From the NCBI GenBank assembly GCA_019058495.1, contig JAHPYV010000004.1, positions 1 through 35,936 on the forward strand: a stretch of DNA of 35,936 nt. Direction: 5' to 3'. Of the stretch, positions 5,924 through 21,484 are shown in pieces. Source of the stretch: Promethearchaeati archaeon (GTDB lineage: Archaea > Asgardarchaeota > Atabeyarchaeia > Atabeyarchaeales > Atabeyarchaeaceae). A program made the position numbers and the translations under genes. The number at the start of each line of letters is the position of its first letter. The stretch's first letter is position 1. Below the pieces are notes generated by a model that saw only the letters and a list, made by a program, of their open reading frames with translations, was not told where the DNA came from and searched no databases.

Positions 5924-6045
5924 TCTGGCTTACTGTTAAGCAGAAATGCGATGCAGAGTTCTGCTGTGGACGATATTGAGTTATTATAATTAAACTGAAT
6001 CTCTTAAAAACGCTTCTACGCTTTTCTCGGGGTTTGAATTCAATC

Positions 6046-7578
6046 ATGGGAGACAAAAGGGATTACCCTAAAGAGAAGGGATTGAAGTGGCCTCCTCTAG
6101 CAGGCGACTACGTCACTGGCAACTCAGATGCAATGGTAGCTGTAATGGCTTGCGGATCTTATGACCTCCCAAGAAAGTTGATGGAGCTTAAGGCACAAAA
6201 GATAGCTATTGCTGGATTCTGCGAAACCGAGAACGAGGGACTGGCAAAAATTATCCAAAACATAGTATCGAACCCTCATATCCGCTACATGATAGTTTGC
6301 GGTGAACGAGTAAGAGGTCATGAGCCGGGACAGACAATCATAGCACTTCATTCAAGAGGACTAGACGAGAAGTATACGGTGATAGGTAGTGAGGGAACGA
6401 TCCCAACGCTTCTGCCAACATATTTCAGGGGCGATGACCCGTCAAGGTATGTTATGCGATTCCAGCAGCAATTGATTTCAATTGCAGACATGACCGGTGA
6501 AACATCACCCGGAAAAATCGGACTGAAGGTCGACGAACTTTCTTTACATAATGCGTCGAATACTTTCGAATTGGAGCCTATTTACCCACCGCAGCCGAGA
6601 GCACTTTATGATTGGGATAAGGCGGTGTCATCTTACGTCAGGAAGACAAAAGATAAGATTAGGCAAAGGTCGGCGCTAGGTTCAATGCTCATGTACGGTA
6701 GAATCAGCCTCCAAGTTTACGACTTACGCGGGGTGAAGCTAGGTGGACGTAGAGCGGAACACCCGACAGTCATGGCAGGCACAATATTCTACACGAAAGA
6801 CAAGATTGTCACAGATCCCAAAAAAGGGGTCTTTGACAAGAAGGTCGCTGCAGAACTGATCGACAGGCAAGAGGAACTTTCTCTCAAGTACAAAATACCG
6901 GTCATCGTTCACATAGTTGGGCAGACAATCGAAGCGATTGAACAATACCTACTATTTACTGTGGATCGCACTGATTCGCCGGTCATTATCGACTCTAGCT
7001 CAATGGATGTCCGTGTTCACGGCATGAGTCTCGCCAAGGACATAGGAGTAGATGACAGAGCAATATACAACTCGGTGATTGCTGCTAATAATGAAGAACG
7101 AAACCACCTAAAGGAAATCGGTGGAGTTAAATACGCTATCTGCCTATCCTATGAGGAATCAGCTGAAGAGTCAATCAAGAAAGCGAAAGAACTTCTGAGC
7201 TTCTTTAAGCACGTCATCGAGAAACCTATCATCGATCCAGGAGTCCCGAGATTGGGAAGAGGAGCGCTAACCGCCCTTGAACGGGCATGGATCCTCAAGA
7301 ATCGACTCGGTTTACCCACCGCCATAGGTATTCATAACCTCCACTCATCCATAAAAGGTCACGAGGATGTCAAATTCGATTTTGACTACAGTCTTCCAAC
7401 CGTTTTTGGGGTTGACATTAACCTATATGGCCCGATCAAGAGCGCCGAGAAAATTATACCAGGCGTGGCTGCAGCAGAGATAGCCATTGCAGACGAGGTG
7501 CACAAGATCCTTGGCGTTCTCCCGCGCCAACCACACCCATACTATGACGTATTCGGCGAAGAAGAGGAAAATCGTTGA
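6046..7578 (+). CDS. MtrA-MtrH fusion: tetrahydromethanopterin:corrinoid methyltransferase
   Basis: One 510-aa chain carries two Mtr subunits. Residues ~15-175 match MtrA, the corrinoid carrier: WPPLAGDYVTGN, ACGSYDLPRKL, IAIAGFCETENEGLAKII and the signature MIVCGERVRGHEPGQ, whose His (~92) is the lower-axial cobalt ligand in MtrA. Residues ~214-505 match MtrH, the methyl-H4MPT-binding TIM barrel: RISLQVYDLRGVKLGGRRAEH, TVMAGTIFYTKDKIV, FDKKVAAELIDRQEELS, SPVIIDSSSMDVRVHG and LGLPTAIGIHNLHSS. No membrane anchor (the MtrA C-terminal helix) is present and no other Mtr subunit is nearby, so it is probably a soluble methyltransferase of the archaeal Wood-Ljungdahl branch. ATG 6046 was chosen; an in-frame TTG at 6034 is less likely. 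Confidence 0.9.
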   Translation: MGDKRDYPKEKGLKWPPLAGDYVTGNSDAMVAVMACGSYDLPRKLMELKAQKIAIAGFCETENEGLAKIIQNIVSNPHIRYMIVCGERVRGHEPGQTIIALHSRGLDEKYTVIGSEGTIPTLLPTYFRGDDPSRYVMRFQQQLISIADMTGETSPGKIGLKVDELSLHNASNTFELEPIYPPQPRALYDWDKAVSSYVRKTKDKIRQRSALGSMLMYGRISLQVYDLRGVKLGGRRAEHPTVMAGTIFYTKDKIVTDPKKGVFDKKVAAELIDRQEELSLKYKIPVIVHIVGQTIEAIEQYLLFTVDRTDSPVIIDSSSMDVRVHGMSLAKDIGVDDRAIYNSVIAANNEERNHLKEIGGVKYAICLSYEESAEESIKKAKELLSFFKHVIEKPIIDPGVPRLGRGALTALERAWILKNRLGLPTAIGIHNLHSSIKGHEDVKFDFDYSLPTVFGVDINLYGPIKSAEKIIPGVAAAEIAIADEVHKILGVLPRQPHPYYDVFGEEEENR

Positions 7579-7629: not shown

Positions 7630-8865
7630 ATGCATGGTCCATTCTTGACTCGAAGCAGAAATGTTGACACAGCATGGCGGTCAATGGTTGACACAGTTCT
7701 TGAGAAGGGTACAACAGTTTACACTGAGAAAAAGAAACAGAAGACACTAGAATGCCTCTGTGCAATGGCACATTTATCTGACTGGAGAACTGGTGAACTC
7801 ACTCCACGAAACTACGTTGGTCTCTCTCCCCAGGTAATCGAGCAACAATACTGGCCTCAATATGCCTCTTCTGAAAGAGGTGAACACACTTACACGTACG
7901 GCTGGTGCATGAAGAGGAGGTTTGGATTCAACCAAATCCATTATGTAGTCGATACGTTAAAGAAGGGGGAGAACACCGCTTTTGCTCAGTTCTGGAATCC
8001 CGTTGTAGATTCAAAAAGTGCTGATCCACCTTGCATAGATATAATAGCATTTCAGAGGTCAAAAGGAAAAGTAAACTTAGTTGAATATATCCGAAGCAAT
8101 GACATTGCGAGAGCTTGGCCGGAGGATGTCTCAGGAAGCTACGCAGTGTTTCTAACAGAAGTTGCAGCGAATTTTGGTGGGGCCTCAGCACGCGGAGACA
8201 TGTTGACCGCTATGGGTTCAGCGCACATATACGAAACTGCCATCGAAGAACTAAGGGAGCGTTCTCGATCGTCATATTCGTCATCCAACTCGAAACCTGT
8301 TGAGAACAATTCCACCCTCTTTGGCCCAGTGATTCGTACGATAGAAAACGGAGAGAAATGCTCTAATACCATGCTAAAGGCCGTCGAACAGCACTCGCGT
8401 AGGTTTGAGGAGGATCCTGTGACTCTGTACATGTGCCTCAAGGTGTACCCGACAAAGCAACAGGAAAAGAGAGCTGGTCAATTCTTCTCAAAGGACTTGG
8501 AAGGCATCGGGGAACTGGGGCGGGTACTAAAGCATTTTGAAGGTAGAAACGATGAAGGAGAATCAATAGCATTTGACCAAGTAGCGTGGGCAAAATCCAA
8601 GGTTGAATCTACCCCAGAGAGCAGAAGGATAGTAGTAACACCGAATAACCCATGGGAACGCCAGTACTCCATAAACCCAATCATAATACAGTTCCTAGTA
8701 AGAGAGAGGATCCTTCACACCGTCGCGCTGTACAGAGATGCCAATATTGAGAGTGCTGATGAAAACTTGGAATCGCTGCTGGCAATCGCGAGTGTAGTAA
8801 GGGGAAATAAAAGAAGCTTCAAGCTGGGTCCACTAGTTATGATCCTGGCGCCTGTTAAGTTCTAG
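7630..8865 (+). CDS. Thymidylate synthase with two tandem TS folds (second lacks catalytic Cys)
   Basis: Thymidylate synthase makes dTMP from dUMP using a methylene-pterin. Domain 1 (residues ~1-215) holds the ThyA core: the FAQFWNP loop, ADPPC with catalytic Cys135, RSND (R155, D158) and GSAHIYE. At 411 aa the protein is about twice archaeal ThyA length. Residues ~230-411 look like a second TS fold: STPESRRIVVTPNNPWER aligns with the TS segment SRRxxVxxWN, NPIIIQFLV replaces PPCHxxxQF (no Cys), and LYRDANIESADENL aligns with the RSxD helix. Domain 1 lacks the SRR pair that in TS homodimers comes from the partner subunit; domain 2 keeps it. It lies 51 nt after mtrAH, probably in the same operon. 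ATG 7630. Confidence 0.85.
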   Translation: MHGPFLTRSRNVDTAWRSMVDTVLEKGTTVYTEKKKQKTLECLCAMAHLSDWRTGELTPRNYVGLSPQVIEQQYWPQYASSERGEHTYTYGWCMKRRFGFNQIHYVVDTLKKGENTAFAQFWNPVVDSKSADPPCIDIIAFQRSKGKVNLVEYIRSNDIARAWPEDVSGSYAVFLTEVAANFGGASARGDMLTAMGSAHIYETAIEELRERSRSSYSSSNSKPVENNSTLFGPVIRTIENGEKCSNTMLKAVEQHSRRFEEDPVTLYMCLKVYPTKQQEKRAGQFFSKDLEGIGELGRVLKHFEGRNDEGESIAFDQVAWAKSKVESTPESRRIVVTPNNPWERQYSINPIIIQFLVRERILHTVALYRDANIESADENLESLLAIASVVRGNKRSFKLGPLVMILAPVKF

Positions 8866-14223: not shown

Positions 14224-15453
14224 GTGCAGATGACTATGGCGAATCCATTGATGAACATTAATGCTTCAACGCCGCAGGAACGCAGCTACCTCCTAGGATT
14301 ATTCTTAACAGATGGTTACCTTGATGAAGGAAGAAAGGGATCGCACGAACAAGTCACATACGCACTTCAGGGGAACGAGGGGGAGATAGCGAACAGGGTT
14401 ACTACCTTTTTAGAGCGCTGTTGCTTGAAACCCCGCACATACCACTACGGAAACATGATAGCGGTCACTGCGAGTTGCACTAACCTCAGCGAGTTCCTTC
14501 CAGATAAAGAAACTCTCTTGAAGGACTGTGACGCGCGGCGAAGGTTCTTCGAGAGAAACGATCTGCTTTTCAACTTGGGGAACCGCGTTGCCTTCTGCGG
14601 TGGCCTCATAGATGGAGATGGCTCGTGTAGGGCACGTTTACAGAATCAGAAAGGCGGAGGATCGCGTTGTCTTGGAACGCTTGTTGTGAATTGGTCTTTA
14701 TACCAAGTCAAGTATCCTTATCTGCTCGACTTCTTTCACGAGTTTGTTGATTCCCTCGCCCCGAATTCTACGTGTTTTGTTCGCAGGAAGGTGAGGCAGA
14801 AGAAAGGAGAGGAGGAGCCGACGAAGACGACGGGAAAGATAGTGTTTGGCGCATACGTTAATCGTGCGGGGAGGGAGGCACTGTTACGGGCTGGAATCGC
14901 GGGTTGGTCTTGGAAGGTTAGCAAGTGCATGGATTCAGTTTTTGCTTTGATTCAGGAGAGAGAAAAGGAGAGAGTGAAGAGGGTGAAGAGTGTCATGAGT
15001 GAGGGAGGGATGAAGCTTGTAGATGTCGCTAAGATGCTGGGTATGTCAAGCACAACTTTGCGAGACTGGCATAAGTGTGGTAAGATTCACGCCAACCTAG
15101 TTTGTGTCGGGGGAGTTCAGGCAGGAAGACGCAAGTTCTTTGTAATACCGAAGGTTGAGGTTGAGAACCTAAAAAGAAGAAAGGAGGAACTTTTGCAGGA
15201 AATGAAGAGAACAGAGAGAACTAAGAGCGAGGGAGTGAAGATCGCAGACGCAGCTAAGATGGTTGGCATTCCCCACCCCACGCTATATGACTGGTGTCGA
15301 AACGGGAAGCTTCACGCCACAATGGTGTATGACGTATGCCATAGATACTTTGTGATACCCAGAGACGAGATTAGGCGACTCAAAGGTATGAAGGAACTTT
15401 CAGACTTGGACTGCTCAGATAAGGTGGAAACAAAAAGTGACCCTCTCATATAA
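14224..15453 (+). CDS. LAGLIDADG endonuclease-like protein with two C-terminal helix-turn-helix units
   Basis: A 409-aa protein. The N-terminal ~250 residues hold two LAGLIDADG helices: YLLGLFLTDGYLDEG (D30) and FCGGLIDGDGSCRARL (near 125-140, acidic D130/D132), as in monomeric homing endonucleases. Then come two repeated MerR/excisionase-like units: residues ~262-320 (VDVAKMLGMSSTTLRDWHKC ... FFVIPKVEVENLKRR) and ~336-388 (ADAAKMVGIPHPTLYDWCRN ... YFVIPRDEIRRLK). It is not inside an intron or intein of a recognisable host gene. GTG 14224 was taken; ATG 14230 and 14236 are equally possible. It may cleave DNA, act as a DNA-binding regulator, or be a mobile-island remnant. Confidence 0.8.
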   Translation: MQMTMANPLMNINASTPQERSYLLGLFLTDGYLDEGRKGSHEQVTYALQGNEGEIANRVTTFLERCCLKPRTYHYGNMIAVTASCTNLSEFLPDKETLLKDCDARRRFFERNDLLFNLGNRVAFCGGLIDGDGSCRARLQNQKGGGSRCLGTLVVNWSLYQVKYPYLLDFFHEFVDSLAPNSTCFVRRKVRQKKGEEEPTKTTGKIVFGAYVNRAGREALLRAGIAGWSWKVSKCMDSVFALIQEREKERVKRVKSVMSEGGMKLVDVAKMLGMSSTTLRDWHKCGKIHANLVCVGGVQAGRRKFFVIPKVEVENLKRRKEELLQEMKRTERTKSEGVKIADAAKMVGIPHPTLYDWCRNGKLHATMVYDVCHRYFVIPRDEIRRLKGMKELSDLDCSDKVETKSDPLI

Positions 15454-17761: not shown

Positions 17762-20700
17762 TTGAAAGACAGGGAGAACTTCCGTTACGCTGTTCGTCTG
17801 ATAGCCGTTTTCATCCTGATTTCGATCTTTGTCACGCCTTCAATCTTAACGAAATCACCCACTTTGATCTCCAACCGTGAATCATCTGCACTCACAGTTA
17901 GTTCTGGAGCACAGCCAATAAAAGTAGATCCTCAACTCACGGAGTTAATCAATAACCAGAAAACCGGCGACGTGAAAGTAATTGTTGTCTTCAGAGACGA
18001 AGCTGGCGTCAAGTCCATTGAGGAAGCAAATGGAATTGGCGGCTGTTTTAGACTTATTACTACATTTACGATAATACCGGCCGCCTTAATTGAGGGTTCA
18101 TTAAACAGCGTCAGCGAACTCTTCTCAAATAACCAGATCCGCAGTCTATATCTCAACAAGGAAAGCAGTATAAACTATACTCTGACCACTGCGGTTTGGA
18201 AATCACCAGCCAGCGACATCAATGTAACCCCATCAAGTATCGGTGACGGCTCTGGCGTTACAGTAGCTGTCTGCGACAGCGGTATTGATACGACTCATCC
18301 TGATCTTGCTGGCAAGGTCGTCGCAAATGAATCATTCGTAAACACCATCTATGGTTACCTCGACAACGAGACACAGACTACAGATAATTTGGGACATGGA
18401 ACATACGTCGCCGGGATCATTGGAGGGACTGGAACCGTACAACCGCAATACAAAGGTATTGCTAGCGGAGTAACATTGATCAATGCTAAGTGCATTGACC
18501 AGTTCGGTAGAGGGTTTACCGCTGGAATAATCATGGCCATACAATGGGCGAACGCTACAGGCGCAGATGTGATCAACCTATCTCTTGGAGGAGGATCGGC
18601 TGATCCAGAGGATCCAATAAGCCTTGCCGTGGACGCCGCCGTCAGAAGTGGTGTAGTTGTAGTATCCGCGGCAGGCAACGCGGGGCCGTACTACTCCAGT
18701 GGAAGTGTTCCAGGAGCAGCGCTACTCGGTATGTCTGTAGGAGCAGCTAATACGACTGCCTCACCCACTTCAATAGCTTCTTTTAGCAGTAGAGGACCCA
18801 CAATTGATGGTCGACCATATCCTGACGTATTGGCCCCAGGTGTCGACATCATCTCTGCTTTGGCGAGCGGATCAGCCATCGCTGACTACGCTGACAGATT
18901 GGGTCTATCGTCTGGATATTACGTTGCACTCAGCGGCACGAGTGCAGCCACTCCTATTGTTTCAGGAGCGGTAGCCCTACTGCTCAGCGCAATTGGCCTA
19001 CGTCAACTTAACAGGTCAACGGTGCCACAGACATCTCTTGTTGAAATAGCTTCGACAATAAAAATCGCGTTAATGCACACAGCTAGCAGCATAGGTGCTG
19101 ACGTCAACACTCAAGGTTCAGGAATGATAGATGTCTATTCTGCATACGAGTACCTTCATAGTTTTGGTGCCAGGCTTAATTATCCAATCGTCCAAGTGTC
19201 TCCCAGCGCTCTAGTTAACCCACCTTACCAAATAGGTTTCCTTGGCGACTCAATGGCGCCAACTATATCAATATGGACCGCTTCCAAGACAAACCTGACT
19301 GTAGTCAGCAGTGGTAATGCGACAGCTTTCATGGAATTCAGTAACCTGAATTTCACAAATATTGTCGGTCAGACCTCTCTTGAAGTGAACATAACAATAC
19401 CCGTAAACGCTGAGTTAGGAAGATACACAGCCCAGATCGGGTTCATGAATGGAACCTCGTTGCTAATTGGCGAGAATGTATCCGTTAGTTTCACCGTCAA
19501 GAACCCGACTGGTCGTATATACATTGACTTGTTCCATACCTACTCAAGTTTCTCAACAGAGTCTACTCTATACAAATACGGATTGATGTCGACTGATCTA
19601 GGATGCAGCATTTATGAAAGCAACAACCCAATAACATACTCTAAGATTAGTCAGTACGATATTCTAGTCTTAACAGACCCTGTAATAATGTTCAGTACGG
19701 AAGAGGTGAACGCGATACACAGGTTCATTGAAAACAACGGTTCACTCCTCGTACTCGGAACCAACTATCCTAGTATCGCATCTGAAGCGGTTAATGCAAT
19801 AACGGCACAGTACGGAATCCAGTACACGAAAAACTTCACAGCAAACTACTCAGATTTAGTATTCGCTCAGCTTATCACTTCAGATATAAACATAACAAAT
19901 CTTGTTTCTCATCCAGTGACAACGGGAGTGGACAGCTATTTGTTTGGCTATGGCTCCACTCTCTCAGTCGGCAATCCAGCGATTTCACTGGCATTCACAC
20001 CGGCAGACTTTGGCGATTTACCAGTTCTTGCTGCGTACGCGTCGGACAAAGGTGGCAGAATAGTTGCTACGGGAAGCCTGCTATTCGCCACTGATGACAG
20101 TCTGCTCGATTCGTCGTATCCGGGCAACGTGAGACTTGCTCAGAACATCATTCGCTGGTTGCTTGCAGGGAGGAATGTCTCCGCTGAGGTAGTAGCGAAT
20201 GAGACTCGTGTAAAACCATATGAGGAGTTCCAGATCGGGATTGAAGTGACAAACAGAACCAATGGCGCACTGCTAGCGGCAAACGTAAGCTGTACGGCCA
20301 GTAACGGCACATCGTATCCGATAAAACTCGGAAATTACACTAATAGAATCTATTACAATACCTCAATCGCATTCCAAACTGAAGGGTTCTACACTATTGA
20401 CATCAAAGCCAACTTTACTGGAGGAAATACTGAGAGAACATTTCTAATTGAAGTCGTGAACACCGCACCAGAGATTACAAGCGTTTCGACAATAACCTAC
20501 CAAAACCCATCGATTTCCTATCTGTTACCCACATACTATGAAAGCTTTCTTCCAGAAGGCACTCCAATAATATCACGGTACGGAGACTACGTAAACATAA
20601 CAATCAGGTTGGGTTTCGCCCTATCATCTAATTCAAATGTAACTGTATACTTGACAAGATCCCCCACTTTCTATATTCCCAATAATAATCCTCTGACATA

Positions 20701-21484
20701 TGTAACTCTGAATGCTACCGTTAAATTGAATGCCACAGCATATCTTGCCCAATTCAAGCCAACACGGGGCAATGGATCTGATGTCTACCAGTATTGGATT
20801 TCAGTCAATAATGATGGTTTCACTTCGACCTTCAGCGGGGTTAATGCGATAATGGTTGCAAGCATAGACCCAGAGATAAGTAATAGCACCACGACCATCA
20901 ATTCACGACCACTTTCCGACCTAAGGCAGCCACAGGGTAATGCGCTGCGGTTATACCCGATGACAGTGAGCATGGGAGACACGATATCAATCGTAGTCAA
21001 CGGGTCTGATTTTGAAGAACCAATAAGCAAGATGCGAGCATGGGCGGTACTGCTTGATCCAAGTTTATACATAGTTCCGGGCATTGTGGATGCGGAACTT
21101 GTTGTGTCAGCGATTTCATTCAACAGTGCAACATCTACATTCCAGGGAAATCTAACAATCCCAGCGAGTGGGACTGCTTACATGCCGGGTTCGCAGACTG
21201 GCCTGAGCTTAGCGAACAGACTCTTTTACATCATGATTGTGCTTGCAGACTCTGATGGTGCATACTCGACAGACTTCGCTGGAGTCTACATTACACCAAG
21301 AACTCAGCCAATACCAGCAGAACTGATATTCCTAATCCTGGGAGCCGCAATAGCAATTCCAGTAATTATAATAATACTGATTGAGAAGAGAACTAAGAAG
21401 AGAGTGGCGGAAGGTCCTCAGCCAACGTATTACCCCAATCCTCCAAGTCAGGATAATCCTCTCAACGTCTACTTCCAGCAGTGA
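17762..21484 (+). CDS. Secreted, membrane-anchored subtilisin-like serine protease
   Basis: A 1240-aa S8 protease. The N-terminal hydrophobic helix (VRLIAVFILISIFV) is a signal peptide or anchor. Residues ~70-135 (VKVIVVFRDEAGVKS ...) are an I9 inhibitor-type prodomain. The catalytic domain has D172 (AVCDSGID), H212 (GHGTYVAG), oxyanion N306 (SAAGNAG) and S394 (SGTSAATP). Next comes a GATase/ThuA-like segment (YDILVLTDPVIMF, NNGSLLVLGTNYPS), then beta-rich repeats with many Asn-X-Ser/Thr sequons. The C-terminus has one TM helix (LIFLILGAAIAIPVIIIILI) and a basic, Pro/Tyr-rich tail, so the protein should face the outside. TTG 17762 follows GAGAGGAGA. Peptide products could feed the amino-acid catabolic genes downstream. 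Confidence 0.93.
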   Translation: MKDRENFRYAVRLIAVFILISIFVTPSILTKSPTLISNRESSALTVSSGAQPIKVDPQLTELINNQKTGDVKVIVVFRDEAGVKSIEEANGIGGCFRLITTFTIIPAALIEGSLNSVSELFSNNQIRSLYLNKESSINYTLTTAVWKSPASDINVTPSSIGDGSGVTVAVCDSGIDTTHPDLAGKVVANESFVNTIYGYLDNETQTTDNLGHGTYVAGIIGGTGTVQPQYKGIASGVTLINAKCIDQFGRGFTAGIIMAIQWANATGADVINLSLGGGSADPEDPISLAVDAAVRSGVVVVSAAGNAGPYYSSGSVPGAALLGMSVGAANTTASPTSIASFSSRGPTIDGRPYPDVLAPGVDIISALASGSAIADYADRLGLSSGYYVALSGTSAATPIVSGAVALLLSAIGLRQLNRSTVPQTSLVEIASTIKIALMHTASSIGADVNTQGSGMIDVYSAYEYLHSFGARLNYPIVQVSPSALVNPPYQIGFLGDSMAPTISIWTASKTNLTVVSSGNATAFMEFSNLNFTNIVGQTSLEVNITIPVNAELGRYTAQIGFMNGTSLLIGENVSVSFTVKNPTGRIYIDLFHTYSSFSTESTLYKYGLMSTDLGCSIYESNNPITYSKISQYDILVLTDPVIMFSTEEVNAIHRFIENNGSLLVLGTNYPSIASEAVNAITAQYGIQYTKNFTANYSDLVFAQLITSDINITNLVSHPVTTGVDSYLFGYGSTLSVGNPAISLAFTPADFGDLPVLAAYASDKGGRIVATGSLLFATDDSLLDSSYPGNVRLAQNIIRWLLAGRNVSAEVVANETRVKPYEEFQIGIEVTNRTNGALLAANVSCTASNGTSYPIKLGNYTNRIYYNTSIAFQTEGFYTIDIKANFTGGNTERTFLIEVVNTAPEITSVSTITYQNPSISYLLPTYYESFLPEGTPIISRYGDYVNITIRLGFALSSNSNVTVYLTRSPTFYIPNNNPLTYVTLNATVKLNATAYLAQFKPTRGNGSDVYQYWISVNNDGFTSTFSGVNAIMVASIDPEISNSTTTINSRPLSDLRQPQGNALRLYPMTVSMGDTISIVVNGSDFEEPISKMRAWAVLLDPSLYIVPGIVDAELVVSAISFNSATSTFQGNLTIPASGTAYMPGSQTGLSLANRLFYIMIVLADSDGAYSTDFAGVYITPRTQPIPAELIFLILGAAIAIPVIIIILIEKRTKKRVAEGPQPTYYPNPPSQDNPLNVYFQQ

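Follow-up and report, generated by a model that had tools for sequence, protein, structure and literature searches.

Two thymidylate synthases (TS) are established, ThyA and ThyX, and in TS, as in SAM-dependent C5 methyltransferases, a cysteine adduct at C6 of the nucleotide activates C5. In solved TS structures, the phosphate of dUMP is bound by two arginines of the subunit itself together with two arginines from the partner subunit (PMC6479881). A fusion of MtrA and MtrH, that is, of a corrinoid carrier and a pterin methyltransferase, has been described in Asgard archaea; its authors regarded the destination of the methyl group as uncertain and put forward coenzyme M (PMC11291895), and a similar proposal was made for the MtrAH of Sif- and Jordarchaeia (PMC9723677). 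Thymidylate synthase goes unmentioned in the main text of both papers, and the main text of a survey of Asgard ThyA and ThyX (PMC9931769) contains neither ‘tandem’ nor any word beginning with ‘fus’. Across the open-licence literature, we found no paper linking TS to a corrinoid or to MtrH, and nothing relevant on TS pseudodimers. Here we describe a tandem TS gene that directly follows an MtrA-MtrH fusion gene in a 35,936-nucleotide stretch of DNA, the whole of which is referred to as the window.

Two thymidylate synthase domains in one chain

A preliminary description of this DNA had read the open reading frame at 7630..8865 of the forward strand as a tandem of two TS domains, and profile and fold evidence bear this out. 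The frame is intact, runs from an ATG start to a TAG stop, encodes 411 amino acids and has 13 full-length homologues. With a score of 60.3 bits against PF00303 (cut-off 24.3), the protein falls within the ThyA superfamily; PF00303 was the sole domain found, and the PF02511 domain that marks ThyX is missing. Against TIGR03283, the equivalog model for methanogen TS, it scores 92.8 bits, below the curated cut-off of 174.55, and domain 1 (D1) by itself matches the same model with an E-value of 7e-23. When residues 225-411 were searched alone, as had been recommended, they matched TIGR03284 (E 1.3e-4) and two more TS models (E 2e-4 and 8e-4). Within its own genome, the gene is the sole PF00303 or tandem-TS-like match.

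The chain comprises a catalytic TS domain, D1 (residues 2-211, 7633..8262), a serine-rich interdomain linker (residues ~212-229, 8263..8316) and a non-catalytic TS domain with an Arg pair, domain 2 (D2; residues 228-411, 8311..8862), all on the forward strand. The AF2 model of the full chain has a mean pLDDT of 85.6 and a pTM of 0.90, with confidence lowest at residues 211-230 (pLDDT ~58-60). Such a pTM for a single chain indicates that D1 and D2 are predicted to hold a defined mutual placement. D1, taken here as residues 2-220, aligns with solved TS-fold enzymes at VIA-align Z-scores of 19-22; a phage dCMP hydroxylase (9iqu, Z 22.0) ranks first, followed by MilA (Z 20.8) and TS (Z 19.6), so that the cytosine-type enzymes come ahead of TS by about 1 to 2.5 Z units.

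D2, whose failure to fold as a TS would have undermined the original proposal, was modelled on its own with a pLDDT of 85.2 and a pTM of 0.85, and Foldseek matched it to TS and TS relatives, the top match being TS 7ta9_B (E 1.2e-8), with modest query TM-scores of ~0.45-0.6. D2 sequences from 11 of the 14 family members match PF00303 (best E 1.2e-4), a profile search of the PDB with D2 ranks TS top, and hhalign relates D2 to single-domain Asgard TS with a probability of 95. Direct comparison of D2 with D1 by hhalign gave no significant match, the single-domain TS profile being matched by each. In an alignment of the whole-chain profile with ordinary TS, D2 covers the DQ...SRR segment and D1 the segment from Cys to HxY.

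Active-site residues are divided between the two domains

The claim that D1 keeps the catalytic cysteine and an RSxD motif (here RSND) and has lost the Arg pair, while D2 lacks the cysteine and keeps SRR (331-333), holds in 14/14 full-length members, every one of them from Asgard archaea; this is a count of non-independent events that corresponds to five to seven independent lineages at family level. In D1, Cys135 (8032..8034), the catalytic nucleophile equivalent to E. coli Cys146, is invariant in all 14 sequences, as are the nucleotide/cofactor motif R155-S156-N157-D158 (8092..8103; E. coli 166-169) and the ribose-binding His and Tyr of S197-A198-H199-I200-Y201 (8218..8232; E. coli His207/Tyr209). 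Ordinary TS has an Arg126-Arg127 pair, which is deleted here between T116 and A117 (7975..7980), leaving a gap in 14/14. D2 carries S331-R332-R333 (8620..8628), invariant in 14/14 and containing the two arginines that, in a TS dimer, extend into the active site of the opposite subunit. In place of the catalytic Cys it has Ile351 (8680..8682), preceded by an invariant N349-P350; across the family this residue is hydrophobic and never Cys. All of these features lie on the forward strand, and the invariant positions in the alignment include C135, R155, S156, N157, D158, R161, D166, S197, A198, H199, Y201, S331, R332 and R333.

Mapped onto E. coli ThyA, D1 keeps Cys146, Arg166, Ser167, Asp169, His207 and Tyr209 in 14/14, the residues characteristic of the superfamily. 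The classical homodimer arrangement, with Cys and Arg126-Arg127 in one domain, is found in none of the 14, RR being deleted from D1 and Cys lost from D2. Mapping of N-terminal residues (Arg21, Glu58, Trp80) was unreliable, and these were left out of the comparison.

Since the pair supplied by the partner in solved TS is the one moved to D2, D1 and D2 jointly hold the needs of a single active site. The split is seen without exception in 13 relatives diverged to about 38-66% identity, and therefore is not a matter of chance. The proposed complementarity of the two halves is thus invariant over 14 sequences and, taken with TS folds in both halves and a full-chain pTM of 0.90, it supports the proposal of one predicted site per chain. 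We consider it very probable that the active site is split over two specialised TS domains; the earlier observation is confirmed and is stronger than first stated.

An MtrA-MtrH fusion gene accompanies the tandem synthase

Upstream of the tandem TS gene, and absent from the preliminary description, lies a gene for an MtrA-MtrH fusion (6034..7578, forward strand; start TTG 6034 or ATG 6046), separated from it by 51 bp. Its product scores 120.3 bits against PF04208 and 189.5 bits against PF02007, both above cut-off. The corrinoid site of MtrA is built from Asp17, Glu54, Gly57, Asn64 and His84, of which His84 is the cobalt ligand (PMC4915002), and equivalents of all five are retained in 13/13 fusions. 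In the window, these include His96 of the MtrA part (6319..6321), equivalent to His84, and Glu66 (6229..6231), equivalent to the Glu54 that holds His84, both on the forward strand.

The 13 further full-length relatives of the tandem TS were found among 227 genomes of the same phylum (families f12, f13, f20, f23, f26 and f27). An alignment scan of genome contigs identified 12 loci, all from Asgard archaea (Njord-, Jord-, Frey-, Sigyn-, Sif- and Borrarchaea), which overlap these 13 relatives and add no extra evidence. A back-translated single-protein search of GTDB 220 genomes gave zero matches, and a phage collection and viral contigs yielded ordinary single TS-type matches only. The fusion lies directly upstream of the tandem TS on the same strand at all loci with upstream sequence (clustering of the window with L032-L043), at gaps of -14 to 51 bp. 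These loci fall into five distinct neighbourhood types, and MtrAH with the tandem TS is the sole pair common to all of them. Thirteen genomes carry the fusion at full length and in one more (G159) a stop divides it, and these are exactly the 14 tandem-TS genomes of the 227; the other 213 have neither the fusion nor the tandem TS and, among the matches listed, carry MtrH-type proteins only. The genomes are metagenome bins with an estimated contamination of 2-12%. In the split case (G159:C357:1394-2870), the interruption falls between the two parts, leaving separate MtrA and MtrH reading frames upstream of the tandem TS.

The flanks of single-domain TS genes, covering at most ~1.5 kb, gave no significant MtrAH match. 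In many genomes of family f28 (G187, G193, G199, G205, G206, G211, G217), one contig carries both an MtrH gene and, ~18-20 kb away, the gene for a single-domain TS, a linkage that may be mere conserved synteny.

The locus in a Njordarchaeum bin with 12% contamination (G165:C182, L032) is collinear with the window over ~15 kb, its TS pair sharing 66-70% protein identity with that of the window, and that of G159 is collinear with a contig from Freyarchaeota that has the same prefix in its isolate name. We considered whether the isolated occurrences in G165 and G159 show that the pair moves together, and set them aside as possible misbinned contigs. A 409-residue protein with LAGLIDADG-like and helix-turn-helix matches (14224-15453) has no counterpart in the otherwise collinear L032. 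Elsewhere, the window encodes at 17762-21484 a 1240-residue protein that combines a subtilase domain with an IFT52 GIFT-like one (E 3.8e-11), and at 31193-35400 genes for a glutamine synthetase, an aromatic amino acid lyase and an amidohydrolase resembling imidazolonepropionase are grouped, a cluster that suggests histidine degradation.

Gene content and the supply of dTMP

ThyX is absent from 12 of the 14 tandem-TS genomes, being full in G159 and partial in G165. A second PF00303 gene above cut-off is absent from 13 of them (G078 has one, and G165 a sub-threshold fragment), and so, in 13/14, is thymidine kinase; a bin completeness of 70-100% bounds these claims of absence. Given that another TS, ThyX or thymidine kinase is mostly lacking, the tandem TS is most likely the main or sole route to dTMP in these organisms. 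The DCD family (dCTP deaminase/dUTPase) is found in all 14, so a supply of dUMP probably exists. DHFR (PF00186), sought as a test for dihydro-pterin production, is absent from 29/29 Asgard genomes; because these include genomes with ordinary TS, its absence is uninformative on that point.

A corrinoid methyl group as a possible source of the thymine methyl

In the reading we prefer, with a probability of about one in two, the tandem TS is a single-chain pseudodimer with one composite site that serves as the main route to dTMP and takes its methyl group from a methyl-corrinoid on MtrAH. D1 would contribute Cys135 as nucleophile together with the residues that bind the nucleotide, and D2, pared down from a TS domain to a scaffold, would supply Arg332-Arg333, giving one composite active site per chain, a geometry suggested by the pattern of residues. 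MtrH would take the methyl group of methyl-tetrahydromethanopterin or methyl-tetrahydrofolate and pass it to the corrinoid carried by MtrA. Attack of Cys135 on C6 of the nucleotide would render C5 nucleophilic, and C5 would in turn attack CH3-Co(III), taking the methyl directly, so that a methylene intermediate, a pterin hydride and a dihydro-pterin would all be dispensable. The erased second half-site may form the docking face for MtrAH. To our knowledge, polar methyl transfer from a corrinoid to nucleotide C5 has no enzyme precedent.

Gene coupling and residue changes put corrinoid methyl donation to the tandem TS at even odds, and we suggest, with slightly less than even confidence, that this would be a third type of thymidylate synthesis, in which a pseudodimer uses a ready-made methyl group from MtrAH and not methylene plus hydride. 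The adjacency of MtrAH and TS falls short of proving direct methyl transfer, and two features count against the preferred reading: Asp169 is retained, and Asp at position 177 predicts dCMP as the substrate in a classical TS.

It is also conceivable, if on balance doubtful, that the enzyme is a pseudodimer of conventional chemistry, with methylene-H4MPT or methylene-H4F giving both carbon and hydride, and that MtrAH is co-regulated with it while its methyl goes elsewhere. D1 is nearest to TIGR03283 and single-domain Asgard TS, and the equivalent of Asp169, a folate-contact residue, is kept; coenzyme M and the Wood-Ljungdahl pathway have been proposed as destinations of the MtrAH methyl (PMC9723677, PMC11291895). 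A loose pathway link is, however, a poor explanation for strict one-to-one co-occurrence and adjacency across five neighbourhood types. Conventional chemistry also sits poorly with changes in the folate pocket, which in E. coli TS is lined by Leu172 and Phe176. The first is Arg161 in the window (8110..8112, forward strand), Arg in 14/14 tandem enzymes and Gly in 16/16 single-domain Asgard TS, and the second is Asp or Glu in tandem enzymes and Ala in their single-domain relatives, while nucleotide positions are retained. With the neighbouring Asn177 equivalent, Asp166 (8125..8127, forward strand; Asp in 14/14 tandem and Asn in 16/16 single-domain enzymes), all three positions are charged throughout the tandem family, against Gly, Ala and Asn in the single-domain relatives.

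Asp166, a change at the pyrimidine-specificity position that the preliminary description did not include, departs from dUMP-specific TS and agrees with the dCMP/CMP (hydroxy)methylases, and although we favour dUMP as the substrate, dCMP is also allowed. Exchange of Asn177 for Asp shifts TS preference from dUMP to dCMP according to work cited in PMC8670742, Asp at this position marks MilA, BcmA and T4 dCMP hydroxymethylase (PMC5175136), and 9iqu and MilA outrank TS among the structural matches of D1. The tandem TS might therefore methylate dCMP, possibly again with the MtrAH methyl, and 5-methyl-dCMP or its triphosphate might be deaminated to a thymine nucleotide or serve DNA modification. We regard this as improbable, since PF00383 deaminases are missing from 10 of the 14 genomes, several of them 95-99% complete, since dTMP would still be required where another TS or thymidine kinase is mostly missing, and since the reading would require a DCD-family enzyme that acts on 5-methyl-dCTP.

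The composite site could instead form between chains in a domain-swapped dimer, an arrangement with which the ~18-residue linker is compatible and on which a model of one chain is silent; the single-chain pTM of 0.90 indicates a confident intramolecular arrangement and makes swapping quite unlikely. That the tandem TS makes no thymine nucleotides and instead accepts methyl groups from MtrAH or acts as its regulator, a reading left room by the lack of a known activity for any member, is scarcely credible given the invariance of Cys and the nucleotide-binding residues in 14/14 and the lack of another TS or ThyX in most of the genomes.

As an architecture, a naturally occurring single-chain TS whose site is shared between two specialised domains would be new. 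Should MtrAH feed the tandem TS, as in our preferred reading, there would be a B12-dependent route to the DNA letter T in the phylum of archaea nearest to eukaryotes, and an acceptor could be named for the methyl group of the Asgard MtrAH fusion. The coupling to MtrAH makes corrinoid-dependent thymidylate synthesis a concrete and testable hypothesis.

Comparison with known systems

The tandem TS resembles E. coli ThyA (PF00303) in fold, in its catalytic Cys and in its equivalents of Arg166-Ser167-x-Asp169, His207 and Tyr209. Unlike homodimeric ThyA, it joins two unequal domains in one chain with one predicted composite site, and it has Asp for Asn177, Arg for Leu172 and an Arg pair that comes from D2. 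The closest sequence relatives of both domains are methanogen-type TS (TIGR03283) and single-domain Asgard TS, which have similarly short N- and C-termini. Single-domain Asgard TS, in contrast, carry Cys and the Arg pair on one chain and keep Asn177, and their genomes lack the MtrAH fusion. ThyX, the flavin-dependent TS, offers an alternative route to dTMP through an unrelated fold, and its PF02511 domain is missing here.

With T4 dCMP hydroxymethylase and MilA the tandem TS shares Asp at 177, and the fold of D1 is best matched by MilA and phage AfhB; T4 dCMP hydroxymethylase, MilA and AfhB are, however, non-tandem, and the dCMP deaminase family is mostly missing from tandem-TS genomes. The upstream gene is of the same kind as the Asgard MtrA-MtrH fusion described in PMC11291895, where a link to TS is unreported.
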